Notes under the pieces: model-generated
Databases searched by the model: none
What the model was told of the DNA's origin: nothing
Seen by the model: the letters and a program-made list of their open reading frames with translations, nothing else
Source of the DNA: Blastococcus litoris
Lineage (GTDB): Bacteria; Actinomycetota; Actinomycetes; Mycobacteriales; Geodermatophilaceae
Assembly (NCBI RefSeq): GCF_003075095.1
Contig: NZ_QCZF01000009.1
Location: 1-64,000, forward strand
DNA length: 64,000 nt
Direction: 5' to 3'
Shown here: positions 7,079-35,087 of the stretch, piece by piece
Layout: every line of letters starts with the position of its first letter
How positions within the stretch are numbered: position 1 is the first letter of the stretch
Made by a program: the position numbers and the translations under genes

Positions 7079-8247
7079 CACCTCTGCCGCCCGACCTCGC
7101 GGCCCCCCCGTACGGCACCGGCACCCTCGCCGACGTCCTGCCCGGTGCCGCCGCCGCCGTGGGGGTACCGGTCGAGCGCGGCGACCTCCCCGCCGACCCG
7201 CTGGACCTCACCGGCGCGCTCGGCGGCGCCCGGCGGGTCGCCGTCCTGCTCGTCGACGGCCTCGGCGCCGACCTCGTCCGCGCCCACGCCGATCTCGCGC
7301 CGACCCTCGCGGCCCTCAGCAGCCCGGCCGGGGACCTGTCCGCCCCGTGCCCGAGCACCACCCCGGTCAGCCTGGCCACCCTCGGCACCGGTCTCCCGCC
7401 CGGCGCCCACGGCATCCTCGGCTTCGTCACGGCCGTCCCGGGGGAGGACCGGGCGCTCAACCACGTCCAGTGGGCCGACGACCCCGACCCCGACGTCTGG
7501 CAGGCACGGCCCACCGTCTTCGAGCAGGCGGAGGCGGCGGGCGTCCCGGCCACGGCGGTCGGCCCCTACGCCTACGCGGGCTCCGGTCTCACCCGGGCCG
7601 TCTACCGCGGCGCCACGTACACCGGCGCGGTCAGCCACGGCGACCTCTGCGCGCTCGTGCTCCGCTCCCTCGCCGCGGCTCCGCGCGCGCTCGTCTACGG
7701 CTACATCCCCGAGCTCGACCTCACCGGCCACGTGCGGGGCGTCGACTCGGCCGCCTGGCGCGCGCAGCTGGCCTTCGTCGACCGCGTCGTCGAGCAGCTG
7801 GTCGCCGGCCTGCCCGACGACGCGGCGCTCGTGGTCACCGCCGACCACGGCATGCTCGACGTCCCCGACGACACCCGGTTCGACCTCGACGAGGAACCCG
7901 CGCTCGCCGACGGCGTCCGGCTCCTGGCCGGCGAACCGCGGGCCCGCTACGTCCACGCCGAGCCGGGCGCGGCCGGCGACGTCCTGCACCGGTGGCGCGA
8001 GGTGCTGGGGCACCGGGCCTGGGTCGCCAGCCGGGACGAGGCCGTCGCCAGCGGGGTCTTCGGGCCGGTCGACGACGACCTGGCGGGACGCATCGGCGAC
8101 GTCGTCGCGCTCGCCCGGGGCACGTGGGCCCTCACCACCCCGCGGCTGGAACCGGGCCCCAGCAGCCTGGTCGGCTACCACGGCTCGCTCACCGCGACCG
8201 AGCTGGCCATCCCGCTGCTGACCGCCCGGGGCAGCGCGCTGCACTGA
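7075..8247 (+). CDS. Alkaline-phosphatase-superfamily nucleotide pyrophosphatase/phosphodiesterase
   Basis: 390 residues, GTG start overlapping the methyltransferase stop (GTGA). AVLLVDGLGADLV (Asp about residue 61) and CPSTTPVSLATLGTGLPPG (nucleophile Thr about residue 100) match the metal site and nucleophile of the type I phosphodiesterase/nucleotide pyrophosphatase (PF01663) family. PELDLTGHVRG and VVTADHGMLDVP supply further metal ligands. There is no signal peptide, so it is probably cytosolic. Short homologues of this type are common in actinobacteria and the substrate is undetermined. It converges on the minus-strand sucrase/ferredoxin-like gene with a 3-base gap. Confidence 0.85.
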   Translation: MTPLPPDLAAPPYGTGTLADVLPGAAAAVGVPVERGDLPADPLDLTGALGGARRVAVLLVDGLGADLVRAHADLAPTLAALSSPAGDLSAPCPSTTPVSLATLGTGLPPGAHGILGFVTAVPGEDRALNHVQWADDPDPDVWQARPTVFEQAEAAGVPATAVGPYAYAGSGLTRAVYRGATYTGAVSHGDLCALVLRSLAAAPRALVYGYIPELDLTGHVRGVDSAAWRAQLAFVDRVVEQLVAGLPDDAALVVTADHGMLDVPDDTRFDLDEEPALADGVRLLAGEPRARYVHAEPGAAGDVLHRWREVLGHRAWVASRDEAVASGVFGPVDDDLAGRIGDVVALARGTWALTTPRLEPGPSSLVGYHGSLTATELAIPLLTARGSALH

Positions 8248-8250
8248 CCG

Positions 8251-9219
8251 TCAGCGGGACCCGGCCGCCGCCACGGTCACGTGCCAGGTGCGCGAGTGCG
8301 CCGGATGCGTCGCCCGGCAGGTGAGACGCGCGGCGACGGCGGAGGGACGGCTCTCCACCCGGGTCACGACGTCACCGTCCGGGCCGGCGAGGGTCACGGT
8401 CCACCGCTCGACCTCGGCGCCCGCCGCGGTCTCCTGGACGACCCCGACCACGGGCAGCGCGTCCACGTCCAGCAGGCCCAGCTCCTCGCGGGCGACGTGC
8501 TGGGCGGCCTGGCCCGGGATCGGGACTCCCGCCCGGCCCCGGAGCCACGGCAGCGCGACCCGGCCGCCGGTGTGCGCGGCGACGATCTCGGCGCCGTCGC
8601 CGGGCACCTGGCCGTAGTAGAAGCCGTGCGGCAGCACGAGGACGTTCGCGGCGAAGCGGTCGCCGCCCAGGTGGCTGCACTCCCACACGTCGGTGGGTCC
8701 GGGCGCGGGCAGGGCCCGGGCCAGCGGCCGCCCGCGCAGTGCGCAGCAGGCGTCGTGACCGCCGTGCGTGCAGACCAGGTAGACGGGGCCCGGTGCGGCC
8801 TCGCCGACGGAGCCGTCCCACGGCGCGGTGAGCAGGTCGGCGTCGGTGGAACGGACCGACCACCACAGCCCCTCGGACCCGGGCCGGCCGTCGACGTAGG
8901 CCCAGCGCCGGCCGGAGTCGGCCAGCCGGTCGCCGGGACGGCGGACCAGCAGCAACCGCACCCCCTCGGCGCGGGAGCGCCGCGCGAGCAGGGGGGCCAC
9001 CTCGGGGTCGAACCGGGACTCCGTCAGCGCGTCCCGCCCCCAGGGCCCGGGCTGCTCGATGAGCAGCCAGCGCTGGGCGGGTGAGGCGGTGGCGACGGGG
9101 GAGTCCCCCCGGGCCAGCGCCTGGACGGAGCAGCGGGTGTCGTCGAGCCGCCCGATTGGGCGCGCGGGGACCTCCGTCCGGCAGAAGTCGTCGGAGGCGG
9201 CCGGGTGGCTTTCGCTCAC
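8251..9219 (-). CDS. Sucrase/ferredoxin-like (Suc_Fer-like) thioredoxin-fold [2Fe-2S]-type protein
   Basis: 322 residues from GTG 9219 (MSESHPAASDDFC). The family signature is clear: YLVCTHGGHDACCALRGRPL, then VWECSHLGGDRFAANVLVLP and HGFYYGQV. In this family these cysteines and histidines sit in a thioredoxin-like ferredoxin fold thought to hold a [2Fe-2S] cluster (family knowledge). Its start codon overlaps the stop of the cupin oxygenase gene (GTGA), so it is the last gene of a tight three-gene minus-strand unit. That context suggests it could supply electrons to, or repair, the Fe(II) oxygenase (inference). Confidence 0.85.
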   Translation of the reverse strand: MSESHPAASDDFCRTEVPARPIGRLDDTRCSVQALARGDSPVATASPAQRWLLIEQPGPWGRDALTESRFDPEVAPLLARRSRAEGVRLLLVRRPGDRLADSGRRWAYVDGRPGSEGLWWSVRSTDADLLTAPWDGSVGEAAPGPVYLVCTHGGHDACCALRGRPLARALPAPGPTDVWECSHLGGDRFAANVLVLPHGFYYGQVPGDGAEIVAAHTGGRVALPWLRGRAGVPIPGQAAQHVAREELGLLDVDALPVVGVVQETAAGAEVERWTVTLAGPDGDVVTRVESRPSAVAARLTCRATHPAHSRTWHVTVAAAGSR

Positions 9220-10484
9220 GGGGCGGGGACGGTGGCGATCGCCTCGGTGACCAGCCGCCGCGCCAGGGTGATCCCGTCGGCGGGCTCCAGACCGGGCAGG
9301 TCGCCGACCTTGAGCTCCCCGACGTCGAGCAGTGCCTCCAGCGCCGGCCGGACGTCACCGGGGAACGAGTGCGACCGCCTGCCGGCGACCAGCGTGATCC
9401 GGCCGTCGGCAGCGTCCCGGAGGGTGCACCGCAACCGCCGGCGCAGCCGCAGGACGGAGTCCGGTTCCAGCGCCGCGGCCGCGGCCGACTGCGCCAGCGG
9501 CGCCACCGGCTCCGGGCGCACCTGCGCCCAGGTGGAGGCCCGCAGGCGGTCGGCCACCTCGGCGGGGTCGACGCGGCCCAGCCACTCCTGGAGGCCGGCG
9601 ATGACGGCGGCGACGTCGTCCCGCACGGACGCGGGGTCGCCCAGGTCCAGGCCCAGCGGCAGCGAGCCGCGCAACTCCGGGTCCTCGGTGGCCAGGGTGC
9701 GGACCAGGTCCAGGGCGGACTCGGCGGCCGCCCACCGGGTGACCGAGTGCACGCCGATCGTCAGGTGGGCGCTGATCTCGCCGAGCGCCACGGCAGAGTG
9801 CAGGAAGCCGCGCGGCAGGTAGAGGGCGTCCCCGGGGCGCAGCACCGCGTCGATGACCGGCTCGCGCCCGGCCGCGGCGGCCACCTCGGCGGCGCGGTCG
9901 TTCCAGGGCTGGGTGCGCAGCGGGTCGCGCAGCACCGGCTCGTGGATCGTCCAGTGCTTCTCGCCGGCCACCTGGAGCACGAAGACGTCGTGCACGTCGT
10001 AGTGCGGGCTGAACCCGCGGGAGGACGGCGGCGTGATGTAGGCGTTCACCTGCGTGGGGTGCCCGAGGTCGGCTGCCAGCTGGTCGGCGAACTCGATCAG
10101 CGGGGGCCAGAGCCGGTGCAGGCCCTGCAGGACCACGGTGCTGCCGTCGGCGAACAGCCGCAGCACGGCGTCCGAGGACACCTGGTCGGCGATCTCCGCG
10201 CCGGCGCCGCCCGAGGTGGTGAAGCGCTTGGTGTCGACGACGGCGCCGTCCTTGGCGATGCGCAGGAAGGGCGCGCGCAGGCCGCGGGTGGACAGCAGCT
10301 CGTCGACGGCGGCGAGGTCGAGCAGGTCGGTGAAGGAGTTGCCGGTGTCCTGAGCCCGGGTGAGCAGTGGGCGTCGGGCCCAGTACTCGTCGGCGAACAC
10401 CTGGGGCTCGATGTCGGTGCACCGCCGCAGGGCCGGGCGGAGCTCCTGCTCCGCCCGGCCCTGCGTGGTCGGGCTCTCGCTCAG
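9216..10484 (-). CDS. JmjC-type cupin protein, probable Fe(II)/2-oxoglutarate oxygenase (ROX-like)
   Basis: About 422 residues. PHYDVHDVFVLQVAGEKHW (H161-x-D163), then DALYLPRGFLHSA (H229), give the HxD...H iron triad of cupin_4/JmjC ribosomal-oxygenase-type hydroxylases. A C-terminal helical/winged region follows. These enzymes hydroxylate Arg, His, Asp or Asn side chains in proteins (family knowledge). No ATG, GTG or TTG start exists in frame; the frame runs back into Arg-rich antisense of the repeat. The best start is CTG 10484-10482, which overlaps the TGA of the ADGG-repeat ORF (CTGA). It yields an (M)SESPTT N-terminus resembling the MSESHP start of the next gene. Translational coupling to the repeat ORF is likely. 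The start remains uncertain, the function class is firm. Confidence 0.85.
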   Translation of the reverse strand: MSESPTTQGRAEQELRPALRRCTDIEPQVFADEYWARRPLLTRAQDTGNSFTDLLDLAAVDELLSTRGLRAPFLRIAKDGAVVDTKRFTTSGGAGAEIADQVSSDAVLRLFADGSTVVLQGLHRLWPPLIEFADQLAADLGHPTQVNAYITPPSSRGFSPHYDVHDVFVLQVAGEKHWTIHEPVLRDPLRTQPWNDRAAEVAAAAGREPVIDAVLRPGDALYLPRGFLHSAVALGEISAHLTIGVHSVTRWAAAESALDLVRTLATEDPELRGSLPLGLDLGDPASVRDDVAAVIAGLQEWLGRVDPAEVADRLRASTWAQVRPEPVAPLAQSAAAAALEPDSVLRLRRRLRCTLRDAADGRITLVAGRRSHSFPGDVRPALEALLDVGELKVGDLPGLEPADGITLARRLVTEAIATVPAP

Positions 10485-10732
10485 GCCGAACCGTCCGCGC
10501 CGCCGTCGGCACCGCCGTCCGCGCCACCGTCGGCACCACCGTCGGCGCCACCGTCGGCACCGCCATCGGCGCCACCGTCGGCGCCACCGTCGGCGCCACC
10601 GTCGGCCGGGCCGTGGTGGGCGCCACCGTCGGCGCCGCCGTCCGCGCCGCCGTCGTGCGTGCCGGGGGTGCCGGACGCGCCGCCGTCGGCGGGGCCCTCC
10701 GTGCTGGTCATGTCGTCGTCGTCGAGAGCCAT
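10481..10732 (-). CDS. Small acidic ADGG-tetrapeptide-repeat protein (possible modified peptide precursor)
   Basis: 83 residues from ATG 10732, with GGAGA about 8 bases upstream. A short head (MALDDDDMTSTEGP) is followed by ADGG units: three scattered ones, then a run of about nine perfect units closing with ADGSA. Only a handful of residues are not A, D or G, and there are no Cys or aromatic residues. The stop is shared with the CTG start of the JmjC-type oxygenase, and the ferredoxin-like gene follows, so all three look co-translated. I do not recognise a family. A secreted or modified repeat peptide whose Asp residues are hydroxylated by the neighbouring oxygenase is a hypothesis. A low-complexity spurious ORF is the alternative. 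Confidence 0.6.
   Translation of the reverse strand: MALDDDDMTSTEGPADGGASGTPGTHDGGADGGADGGAHHGPADGGADGGADGGADGGADGGADGGADGGADGGADGGADGSA
10490..10606 (-). repeat. 12-bp tandem repeat encoding ADGG units
   Basis: On the plus strand the unit reads approximately CCACCGTCGGCG, repeated about nine times with changes mostly at third codon positions. On the coding (minus) strand it gives (ADGG)n. Third-position drift with conserved amino acids suggests selection on the peptide rather than pure slippage, although 12-bp units can also expand by slippage. Confidence 0.85.
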
Positions 10733-10755
10733 GCCGTCTCCGTCCAGGTCGATCC

Positions 10756-10777
10756 GGGGCTGCCGGACGGCAGCCCC
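10756..10777 (-). promoter_or_regulatory. Stem-loop in the leader of the ADGG-repeat operon
   Basis: GGGGCTGCC / GGCAGCCCC forms a 9-bp perfect stem with a 4-base loop about 24 bases upstream of the ATG at 10732, within the presumed mRNA leader. It could act as an attenuator or protein site. No ligand-binding RNA family is recognised. Confidence 0.4.
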
Positions 10778-10908
10778 CGTCGCTGCTTACCTCCCTCATC
10801 CTTCTCCGACACCTGCCTCCCCACCAGCCCGGACCTGCTGCGACGGGGCCCAGGTCACGAGGACGACACGACACGGGCCGGGCGCGCGCGCCCCGCAGAC
10901 CGCGCCGG

Positions 10909-10914
10909 TACTGT
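10909..10914 (+). promoter_or_regulatory. Putative dinB -10 element (TACTGT)
   Basis: TACTGT fits TANNNT and lies 13 bases before the LexA box, which would place that box just downstream of the transcription start, a position suited to repression. The same hexamer occurs upstream of mraZ. Confidence 0.4.
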
Positions 10915-10927
10915 CCGGGACGAGGGA

Positions 10928-10943
10928 TCGAACGTGTGTTCGA
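10928..10943 (+). promoter_or_regulatory. LexA/SOS box upstream of dinB
   Basis: TCGAACGTGTGTTCGA is a perfect match to the actinobacterial SOS consensus TCGAAC-N4-GTTCGA, fully palindromic in its arms. It ends 15 bases before the dinB GTG. LexA bound here would block dinB transcription until DNA damage triggers RecA-dependent LexA cleavage (family knowledge). Confidence 0.9.
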
Positions 10944-10958
10944 ATTGGAGGAGGGGCA

Positions 10959-12239
10959 GTGGGATCGGGCCGGGCGGAGGGCTGCGGCGTCCTGCACGTG
11001 GACATGGACGCGTTCTTCGCCAGCGTCGAGGTGCGCAAGCACCCCGAGCTGGCGGGCACCCCGGTGATCGTCGGTGGGTCGGGGAACCGGGGGGTGGTCA
11101 CGTCCGCGACCTACGAGGCGCGCCGCTACGGGGTGCACGCGGCCATGCCGACCGCCCGGGCGCTGCGGCTGTGCCCGACGGCGACGGTGCTGCCGGGGGA
11201 CATGGCGCTCTACAGCGAGGTGTCCCGGTCGGTGATGGCGCTGTTCCGCTCGATCACCCCGGTGGTCGAGCCGCTCTCGCTCGACGAGGCCTTCCTCGAC
11301 GTGTCCGGTGCCGGGCGCCGGCTGGGGGACGCGGCCGAGATCGGCGAGTACATCCGCGCCCGGGTGTTCGACGAGCAGGGGATCACCTGCTCGGTCGGGG
11401 TGGCCGGCACCAAGTTCGTCGCCAAGCTCGCCTCCACCCGCGCCAAGCCCGACGGGATGCTCGTCGTCCGCCCGGCCGAGGTGATGGACTTCCTGCACCC
11501 GCTGCCCGTCGGCGCCCTGTGGGGCGTGGGCCCCAAGACCGAGGAGCAGCTGCTCCGCCTCGGTCTGCGCACCGTCGGCGACCTGGCGCACGTGCCGGCC
11601 AAGACCCTGCAGCGGGCCGTGGGCGTGGCCGCCGGCAGCCACCTGCACGAGCTGGCCTGGGGCCGCGATCCCCGGCGGGTCGTGCCGAACGAGCCGGAGA
11701 AGTCCACCGGCCACGAGGAGACCTTCGGCACCGACGTCGACGACCCCGAGGTGATCCACCGCGAGCTCCTCCTGCTCGCCGAGCGGACGGCGGGCCGGCT
11801 GCGCGCCGGGGGGTGGCTGACCCGCACGGTGAGCATCAAGGTGCGCTTCGCCGACTTCGCCACGATCACCCGCAGCCGCACCCTCGACGTCCCCACCGAC
11901 GTCGGGCAGGAGCTCTACGAGACCGCCCGCGCCCTCTTCGACGCGCTCGGGCTGGAGCGGGCGCGCATCCGGCTGGTCGGGGTCCGGGCCGAGCGCCTGG
12001 TCGAGGCCGGCAACGCACCGCAGCAGCTCGAGCTCGGCGCCCGGGAGCACGGCCGGCGCGAGGCCGAGCTGGCCGCCGACCGCGCCGCCCGGCGCTTCGG
12101 GGCCGGCGCGGTCCGCCCCGCGACGCTGCTCCACCGGGCGGGCCGGCCGGGCAGCAGCCGCCCGACCAGCGCGGATAGCCCTTCGCGGACGATGCGGAAC
12201 CCGGGCGCGGGCCCGACCGTTGGCTACCCGAAGGAGTGA
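10959..12239 (+). CDS. dinB: DNA polymerase IV (DinB, Y-family translesion polymerase)
   Basis: 426 residues from GTG 10959, with GGAGGAGGGG just upstream. Y-family motifs are HVDMDAFFASVE (catalytic Asp), YEARRYGV, PLSLDEAFLDVSG (catalytic Asp-Glu) and SVGVAGTKFVAKLAS. The helix-hairpin-helix thumb LWGVGPKTEEQLLRLG and the little-finger domain follow. QQLELG near residue 360 is a possible beta-clamp contact, and the last 50 or so residues are disordered-looking. It performs error-prone bypass of DNA lesions. A perfect LexA box immediately upstream makes it SOS-inducible. Mycobacterial dinB genes are generally described as outside the SOS regulon, so this control is notable. Confidence 0.95.
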   Translation: MGSGRAEGCGVLHVDMDAFFASVEVRKHPELAGTPVIVGGSGNRGVVTSATYEARRYGVHAAMPTARALRLCPTATVLPGDMALYSEVSRSVMALFRSITPVVEPLSLDEAFLDVSGAGRRLGDAAEIGEYIRARVFDEQGITCSVGVAGTKFVAKLASTRAKPDGMLVVRPAEVMDFLHPLPVGALWGVGPKTEEQLLRLGLRTVGDLAHVPAKTLQRAVGVAAGSHLHELAWGRDPRRVVPNEPEKSTGHEETFGTDVDDPEVIHRELLLLAERTAGRLRAGGWLTRTVSIKVRFADFATITRSRTLDVPTDVGQELYETARALFDALGLERARIRLVGVRAERLVEAGNAPQQLELGAREHGRREAELAADRAARRFGAGAVRPATLLHRAGRPGSSRPTSADSPSRTMRNPGAGPTVGYPKE

Positions 12240-34373: not shown

Positions 34374-35087
34374 ATGGCCGGAGCCATGCGGAGGATGGGT
34401 ATCTACCTGGGGCTCGTCGAGGACGACGACGCCCGCGCCTACGGCCGGTACGACGCCCGTCAGTCCGAGCACACCGACCACGACCGCCGGTACGGCGGTC
34501 GGTACGCCGACGACCGGTACGACGACCGCTACGACGACGAGTACGCCGGTGGCTACGCCGACGAGGACCTCGACGACGAGCCCCCCGCGGCCCGCGAGCC
34601 CGAGGCGCTGCCGGCCCGCCGGGAGCGCGCAGCCCGCCCGATCGGCCTGGCGCCCGCCGGCGCCGGTCCCTCGCGGGTCAGCGCCATGGGTGGCTCGGCC
34701 GGCGGTTCCGCGATGGGTAGCGGCCCGGTGGGCGCCACCGCGGCGAAGCTCGTCGTCCGGGAGCCGGTCGCCGTCGTGGCCGAGCCCGCCCCGGCGCCCG
34801 CACCGCAGCCCTACCGGATCACCACGCTGCACCCGCGCACCTACAACGAGGCGCGGGTCATCGGCGAGCGGTTCCGCGACGGGATGCCGGTCATCATGAA
34901 CCTGACGGAGATGGACGACTCCGACGCGAAGCGGCTCGTCGACTTCGCTGCGGGTCTGTCCTTCGGACTGCGCGGTAGTATCGAGCGCGTCACGGCGAAG
35001 GTCTTCCTGCTCAGTCCGCAGAACGTCGACGTGACGGCCGAGGACAAGGCGCGGATCCGCGAAGGCGGGTTCTTCAACCAGTCCTGA
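34374..35087 (+). CDS. sepF: SepF cell division protein (FtsZ membrane anchor)
   Basis: 237 residues from ATG 34374 (GGGGGAGGT upstream), although the same frame is open further upstream. The N-terminal [19 protein letters not shown] is the amphipathic membrane-targeting helix. An Asp/Tyr/Arg-rich linker with [18 protein letters not shown] and an Ala/Gly stretch follow. The SepF fold ([61 protein letters not shown]) makes up the last 90 or so residues. In actinobacteria, which lack FtsA, SepF tethers FtsZ to the membrane. Confidence 0.95.

Follow-up and report, generated by a model that had tools for sequence, protein, structure and literature searches.

Why should a gene for a small, aspartate-rich repeat peptide stand immediately ahead of a gene for a JmjC-type oxygenase? 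This question is raised by a 64,000-nucleotide stretch of Blastococcus litoris (contig NZ_QCZF01000009.1, positions 1 to 64,000; hereafter the window), in which the two genes, followed by a third for a Suc_Fer-like protein, occupy positions 8251 to 10732 of the minus strand. On the evidence of the sequences compared below, the repeat peptide is quite likely to be the substrate of the JmjC enzyme, and the pair probably works by C-3 hydroxylation of the Asp residues of the peptide by its own oxygenase, where product, modification and function are read from the genes.

The original prediction described three minus-strand genes joined by stop-start overlaps, and the coordinates bear this out. The peptide gene (10481 to 10732, 83 residues) overlaps the JmjC gene (9216 to 10484, 422 residues) by the four bases CTGA, and the latter overlaps the Suc_Fer-like gene (8251 to 9219, 322 residues) by the four bases GTGA. 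The peptide consists of a short acidic head, MALDDDDMTSTEG, followed by 13 tetrads D-x-G-[ASTG] and the end DGGADGSA, in agreement with the short head and about a dozen ADGG units described before. The second protein matches JmjC_2, a family of 2-oxoglutarate (2OG)/Fe(II) oxygenases (PF08007, E 9e-28, over the cut-off), and the HxD...H triad claimed for it is present as H161, D163 and H229. The third was called Suc_Fer-like and indeed matches PF06999 well over the cut-off (E 1.8e-17, 64.5 bits against 34.9). Pfam gives no match for the 83-residue peptide up to E 1, NCBIfam gives none for any of the three window proteins, and six peptides from other loci give a single chance match in NCBIfam, far under the cut-off. 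The source genome, searched as a whole, holds one PF08007 match and one PF06999 match, both in this operon. The flanking genes read as opposite-strand in the list of open reading frames (ORFs), no family search having been made on those neighbours, and the three genes look like a self-contained operon.

JmjC homologues are found in 108 of 112 Geodermatophilaceae genomes and, beyond the family, in 230 of 397 genomes of an order sample (E at most 1e-30), 109 of 394 of a class sample (E at most 1e-25) and 58 of 396 of a phylum sample (E at most 1e-15); in these three samples the test for a peptide covered the fetched loci only. For the family, 110 loci from 107 genomes were fetched, leaving out a 41-residue JmjC fragment in genome G096, and 102 were counted after exclusion of eight with fewer than 100 bases upstream. 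The order level outside the family is represented by 40 loci that we chose among the matches listed, the class level by 28 new loci from the search together with 40 that we chose among the listed places, and the phylum level by 17 new loci from the search, the remaining listed places being left out. One locus, L249, duplicates L209 from the same genome. An ORF was scored as Asp-repeat or Asp-rich if it held at least four tetrads D-x-G-[ASTG], or at least seven Asp per 24 residues with at most one Arg, and if its end fell within the interval from 160 bases ahead of the JmjC start to 130 bases behind it.

Such an ORF lies directly upstream of the JmjC gene at all 102 family loci, at 40 of 40 order loci, 58 of 68 class loci and 17 of 17 phylum loci. 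With all levels taken together it is present at 217 of 227 JmjC loci against 86 of 17,153 other ORF segments, figures that are not blind, as the criterion was chosen after the peptides were known. The criterion tried before it, which asked for 20% Asp or more in a 24-residue window with at most two Arg, was too loose and too strict together, passing at 99/102, 27/40, 54/68 and 17/17 loci of the respective levels and in 1170 of 17,739 controls. The search that the original prediction proposed, for JmjC genes preceded by repeat ORFs, thus finds the repeat ORF at every family locus counted; and homologous loci consistently lacking the repeat ORF, or frameshifts within it, which had been named as evidence to the contrary, did not occur in the clade. 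Since the pair is present at every family locus tested, it behaves as a conserved unit, for which a substrate relation is the simplest reading. The position of a small peptide gene adjoining the candidate enzyme gene at 217 of 227 loci is also the precursor-enzyme arrangement of ribosomally synthesized and post-translationally modified peptides (RiPPs).

The peptides are of more than one type. Where the JmjC protein has at least 45% identity, ADGG-type peptides occur at all examined loci but L279, often with units such as EGPADGGATPGQHDGGADGGA; the peptide of L279 (JmjC identity 47%) is rich in Gln, Asp and Glu, has no ADGG repeat and passes by Asp content only. At about 34-42% identity and with a neighbouring Suc_Fer gene, the repeat is a different one, with an Asp at intervals of two or three residues (DGTDGDATD, DADASDADA). 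The ten misses (L294, L296, L299, L301, L302, L303, L305, L306, L307 and L309) all have a JmjC protein of at most 36% identity and no Suc_Fer gene in the fetched stretch. Upstream of four of them, L296, L299, L302 and L303, lies a short non-repetitive Asp-bearing peptide, and upstream of L299 and L302 also a gene for an S9 prolyl-oligopeptidase.

The peptide types are also grouped by the phylogeny of the enzyme, in a tree of 74 of the 140 rows of the JmjC alignment. ADGG-type rows form one clade (support 99), with L327, which carries the ADGG label by script rule, placed apart. Of the 22 DxxD-type rows with Suc_Fer, 19 fall in another group, and the other three (L290, L292 and L293) lie closer to the ADGG clade. 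Peptide type combined with Suc_Fer presence changes label ten times on the tree against 37.6 times when shuffled, a comparison that tests clustering only.

We further note that some distant JmjC loci (L296, L299, L302 and L335) combine short Asp-bearing peptides with genes for an S9 peptidase or an ABC transporter and look like RiPP clusters of the ordinary kind. At L019 and L057, a second ADGG-repeat ORF lies upstream of the operon peptide, with the tail DDPTTE..ED.RFA, its end lying 316 and 425 bases ahead of the start of JmjC, respectively. These two are the genuine ADGG ORFs among the first 40 of the 86 control passes.

Long open frames are common at high G+C and are hence weak proof of coding by themselves. 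The tail DGSA is found at 97 of 102 Geodermatophilaceae loci, and the number of tetrads varies from 4 to 23 per family peptide (median 14, n=97). A comparison of repeat number and third-position changes had been proposed earlier, and alongside this variable unit number it reveals a third-position excess: for codons one unit (four codons) apart, 8099 comparisons in the family give 4182 differences at position 3, 2206 at position 1 and 2291 at position 2, and 71 comparisons in the window peptide give 30, 20 and 15, respectively. The head codons are nearly invariant, third positions included, and carry no information on the reading frame; a codon table limited to ADGG units was left unused because of its circularity at positions 1 and 2. 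Because an ORF stands in the same place at 102 of 102 loci, keeps the DGSA tail and shows the third-position excess, it looks to have been selected as a protein.

The window enzyme has the architecture of the protein hydroxylases NO66 and MINA53. Its model (mean pLDDT, the predicted local distance difference test score, 74) aligns over residues 8-422 to human NO66 (Z 25.2, root-mean-square deviation (rmsd) 6.0, 390 residues aligned), with MINA53 and YcfD next, and in this alignment the JmjC, dimerisation and winged-helix parts are all found. By sequence, too, the closest solved relatives are NO66 and MINA53, then YcfD. All three act on proteins, hydroxylating a His or Arg residue at C-3 (PMC9994133). 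In an alignment of 140 homologues, 16 of them from the family (L291 was left out as too short), the metal-binding H161, D163 and H229, together with K176 and N147, which include the 2OG lysine, are identical in all 140 rows. The residues expected to contact the substrate differ in part. NO66 contacts its Rpl8 peptide through R297, Y328 and S421 (PMC6006756), and these residues, mapped by hand from the sequence alignment, correspond to V118, Y149 and G244 in the window enzyme. At position 244, 138 of 140 homologues have Gly, and the Ser with which NO66 and MINA53 bind the target His is gone. R124 does not vary across the 126 rows that make up the two repeat-associated groups; it is a candidate for binding an Asp carboxylate.

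The residue composition of the peptides points to the target. Among the 217 peptides as called by script, His is missing from 43, Asn from 138 and Lys from 169, and Asp occurs in every peptide, 5 to 68 times each; these counts are approximate, as peptide start codons were chosen by script and are wrong in some rows (e.g. L209 and L236). Because 43 peptides are without His and the His-binding Ser is Gly in 138 of 140 homologues, the target, as far as sequences tell, cannot generally be His. Around the 1509 core Asp residues of the family, Gly is found at D+2 in 91% and Ala at D+3 in 98%. In the group below 45% identity the Gly and Ala positions shift and Asp stays frequent, at 29% of core residues. 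Since Asp is present in all peptides and is kept when Gly and Ala change, it is the most economical choice and probably the target residue.

The peptide and enzyme genes are tightly joined. The JmjC gene has an apparent CTG start within the overlap with the peptide gene: among the 76 loci with that overlap, 75 read CTGA and one GTGA, and at 69 of them none of ATG, GTG and TTG occurs within the first 17 codons of JmjC or in the 13 codons that precede these. The head motif is found in 174 of 217 peptides and is missing in some families, and the cores vary in number and type; the head may correspond to the conserved leader of a RiPP precursor. Among ADGG-type rows of at least 45% identity (101 rows, L249 omitted), a JmjC C-terminal domain scores at least 25 bits in 76 of 84 rows with the head motif and in 5 of 17 without it, though some motif calls are wrong owing to cut loci or core starts (e.g. 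L061, L072, L237 and L247). Recognition of the leader by the C-terminal winged-helix part, in the manner of a RiPP recognition element, is suggestive and a lead only.

The third protein appears to be a redox protein that the pair can do without. Its model (mean pLDDT 84.8) contains at residues 144-229 a part similar to the thioredoxin-like [2Fe-2S] ferredoxin of Aquifex (1m2a; Z 9.8, rmsd 2.2, 86 residues aligned). This match comes from a second structural comparison; plain Foldseek with the same model gave no match at E at most 0.001, and by sequence no relative was found in the PDB. C30, C150, C158, C159, C301, H152, H155 and H183 are invariant in 53 Suc_Fer-like sequences, and the modelled fold with its ligand residues is that of a thioredoxin-like [2Fe-2S] ferredoxin, the cluster itself being putative. 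The original prediction took the peptide, hydroxylase and redox protein as one unit. The JmjC-peptide pair is conserved as it proposed, but the Suc_Fer-like protein is not essential. The protein is an accessory, optional partner, as the pair (e.g. at L212) occurs without any PF06999 match in ten of ten sampled genomes of family f16 and the PF06999 match lies elsewhere in the genome in four of four sampled genomes of family f43. That it supplies electrons keeping or returning the oxygenase iron as Fe(II) is a tentative guess from chemistry. As a separate observation, the C-terminal part of the protein (residues 231-322) has cystatin-like matches, the highest at Z up to 8.4 (rmsd 2.6, 65 residues aligned) to a designed protein.

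These features suggest the following course of events. The repeat peptide would be made first, with the JmjC oxygenase translated right behind it by coupling. The peptide would bind the oxygenase through its acidic head, which is likely to serve for recognition. With Fe(II), O2 and 2OG, the oxygenase would hydroxylate a large number of the Asp residues in the D-x-G-A units at carbon 3 (the beta carbon), probably working its way along the repeats. Where present, the Suc_Fer-like protein might give the electrons that hold or restore Fe(II). The product would be a chain of beta-hydroxyaspartates, plausibly a metal-binding polymer, and it is expected to be intracellular because the window operon has no linked protease or exporter and the head lacks hydrophobic character. 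Of the uses that so many hydroxyaspartates could have, metal binding seems the most plausible, and even so a doubtful one. Extended to Actinomycetota at large, the proposal is of a phylum-wide class of ribosomal peptides in which a dedicated JmjC enzyme beta-hydroxylates multiple Asp repeat units, giving genetically encoded poly-beta-hydroxyaspartyl chains. These would serve housekeeping rather than antibiotic purposes, and the spacing of the units (ADGG, DGTD, DADA) would be set by the enzyme clade. We regard this extension as conceivable, if a little short of probable.

Several points weigh against a substrate relation of this kind or against parts of it. No peptide was recognised at six of the ten misses (L294, L301, L305, L306, L307 and L309), at L305-L307 by the criterion only. 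NO66 and MINA53 are themselves His-selective (PMC9994133), and in ADGG-type peptides Gly and Ala are conserved as well as Asp, so that another residue could be the target. The head motif is truly absent in several families, and an independent-pairs test lends no support, over and above shared ancestry, to a link between loss of the head and divergence of the C-terminal domain. Typical RiPP maturation and export are unsupported at the window operon, in which no protease or exporter was found (its neighbours read as opposite-strand, with no family search). Finally, the peptide product, its modification and any phenotype are predictions from the genes.

Other explanations of the pair account for part of these observations. 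The JmjC protein may be a ribosomal oxygenase of the YcfD or NO66 kind, the repeat peptide being an independent cytosolic protein that only happens to be encoded in the same operon. The close relationship to NO66, MINA53 and then YcfD, and the alignment of the model to NO66 from residue 8 to 422, are what such an enzyme would show, but two of the three Rpl8-contact residues of NO66 are changed, V118 and G244, with Y149 kept (PMC6006756, as above). A ribosomal target would also not explain why an Asp-rich peptide gene precedes JmjC across the phylum sample and why peptide type clusters on the enzyme tree, and we consider this account rather improbable. Another account is that the ORF is untranslated, or serves only the translation coupling of JmjC, considering how common long open frames are at this G+C and that a conserved hairpin lies upstream. 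The tail conserved in the family and the third-position excess argue otherwise, as do an orphan copy that has a similar upstream box and the same tail with no adjoining JmjC gene, and peptides of other classes that have different residues yet the same Asp-rich nature. A chance or untranslated ORF was rejected as a candidate on the conservation and codon-position evidence, and a role in coupling alone seems to us very improbable.

The remaining alternatives accept a working relation between peptide and enzyme and differ in its nature. As an iron or metal carrier, or a regulator, the peptide would be bound by the oxygenase unmodified, its repeated Asp sites holding the metal. Acidic repeats whose number ranges from 4 to 23 tetrads (97 family peptides) suit a metal buffer, and a redox partner is encoded next door; yet a strict D-x-G-A spacing that changes between JmjC clades fits enzyme selectivity better than loose binding, and an IdeR iron box, sought by its consensus with at most three mismatches, has no match within the window. 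We judge this role unlikely. Alternatively, the reaction on the peptide may be something other than plain hydroxylation, namely a cross-link, a desaturation or a backbone change. A 2025 JACS paper reportedly describes, to go by its title, macrocyclisation by 2OG dioxygenases in RiPPs, and could overlap with the present pair. The architecture of the window enzyme is instead that of the C-3 hydroxylases, and Gly/Ala-rich units would offer few partners for cross-links, which makes such chemistry improbable here. Hydroxylation of the repeat peptide by its adjoining oxygenase accordingly stays our preferred reading.

The region 5' of the peptide gene, all on the minus strand, is conserved as well. 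A Shine-Dalgarno-like GGAG, read from the sequence in a region conserved in relatives, lies at 10738 to 10741 ahead of the peptide ATG. It is preceded by a hairpin, GGGGCTGCC-GTCC-GGCAGCCCC (10756 to 10777), with compensatory changes in relatives, and by two boxes, GAGGTAAGCAGC with core GGTA (10782 to 10793) and CAGGTGTCGG with core GTGT (10806 to 10815). Among 93 Geodermatophilaceae upstream regions, GGTA is found in 84, that of an orphan copy of the peptide included, and GTGT in 87, the two being spaced by 15 bases in 71 matches and by 17 in eight. Boxes at such a near-fixed distance are promoter-like and may form an unusual promoter or operator. In the hairpin, examined in 60 of 92 prepared upstream regions that we chose, 93.5% of cells are paired and 29 double changes occur against 6.4 expected by shuffling, far above slid versions. 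The single-sequence fold of the window 5' region is unremarkable (z -1.49, with 12 of 200 shuffles folding as well), and the case for the hairpin rests on this covariation. It may be a control element acting as RNA or else an operator in the form of a DNA palindrome, which would show the same covariation. Rfam, run on positions 8000-11200, gives only miRNA-family matches far under the gathering score. Iron regulation through an IdeR box was dropped as a candidate.

The orphan copy is a repeat peptide of the source genome on contig C5 (L344:7236-7454) that reads MDDMTHGFGPIEGADHG...DGGADGSA and is not beside a JmjC gene. It shares its tail with the operon peptide and has a similar upstream box. 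A search with the orphan peptide in 57 family genomes matched other genomes only at their operon peptides; it also missed the operon peptides of most genomes, so that further orphans may exist. Elsewhere in the window, at 34487-34565, there are overlapping tandem repeats of 12 to 27 bases with units like CGACGACGAGTACGACGACCGCTA.

The pair of an Asp-repeat peptide and a JmjC oxygenase is apparently undescribed. The original prediction knew of no system with this make-up, and we likewise found no description of the pair in the open literature, subscription papers lying mostly outside the search; four peptide strings such as DGGADGG and EGPADGG led in the open literature to one unrelated paper only. 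If the proposal is true, many actinobacteria have an apparently undescribed protein-hydroxylation system, and the bacterial JmjC_2 family gains a kind of substrate beside ribosomal proteins. It would also provide a natural repeat substrate for the study of successive hydroxylation, and encoded poly-hydroxyaspartate materials. The near-universal presence of the JmjC gene in Geodermatophilaceae, in 108 of 112 genomes, points to a basic function. The system is directly testable by co-expression and mass spectrometry.

Judged by its sequences, the pair would belong with JmjC protein hydroxylation and is RiPP-like rather than a proven RiPP. The Suc_Fer-like protein is similar to thioredoxin-like [2Fe-2S] ferredoxins and Suc_Fer/Apd1 proteins in its residues 144-229, and differs in its further N- and C-terminal parts and in its linkage to a JmjC oxygenase gene. 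AspH, the enzyme that makes beta-hydroxyaspartate in EGF-like domains, is not a JmjC_2 protein and acts on disulfide-rich domains, unlike the window enzyme. The likeness would lie in C-3 hydroxylation of Asp or Asn in repeated modules (PMC9994133). Bacterial PF08007 homologues occur in RiPP-like contexts (PMC12710340). Another comparison is offered by locus L335 on a Streptomyces clavuligerus plasmid, where a 48-residue Asp-bearing peptide directly precedes a gene for a cupin/JmjC protein with 35% identity across 63% of the query; its core is short and non-repetitive (NDPSDP, DPDPFDP), an S9 peptidase and an ABC transporter are near, and no Suc_Fer is annotated in the stretch. BipG, a JmjC protein that acts as Orn hydroxylase on the RiPP precursor in biphenomycin biosynthesis, is likewise a JmjC enzyme working on a ribosomal precursor peptide within a gene cluster (PMC12707348). 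There it works on Orn, as one among several tailoring enzymes, whereas the window JmjC is the sole evident modifying enzyme and its peptide a long Asp repeat. A further comparison is with NO66, MINA53 and YcfD, which share with the window enzyme the JmjC_2 family, the HxD...H triad, the 2OG lysine and the fold over nearly the whole chain, and from which it differs in two of the three peptide-contact residues of NO66 and in its proposed substrate, a dedicated repeat peptide encoded next door.

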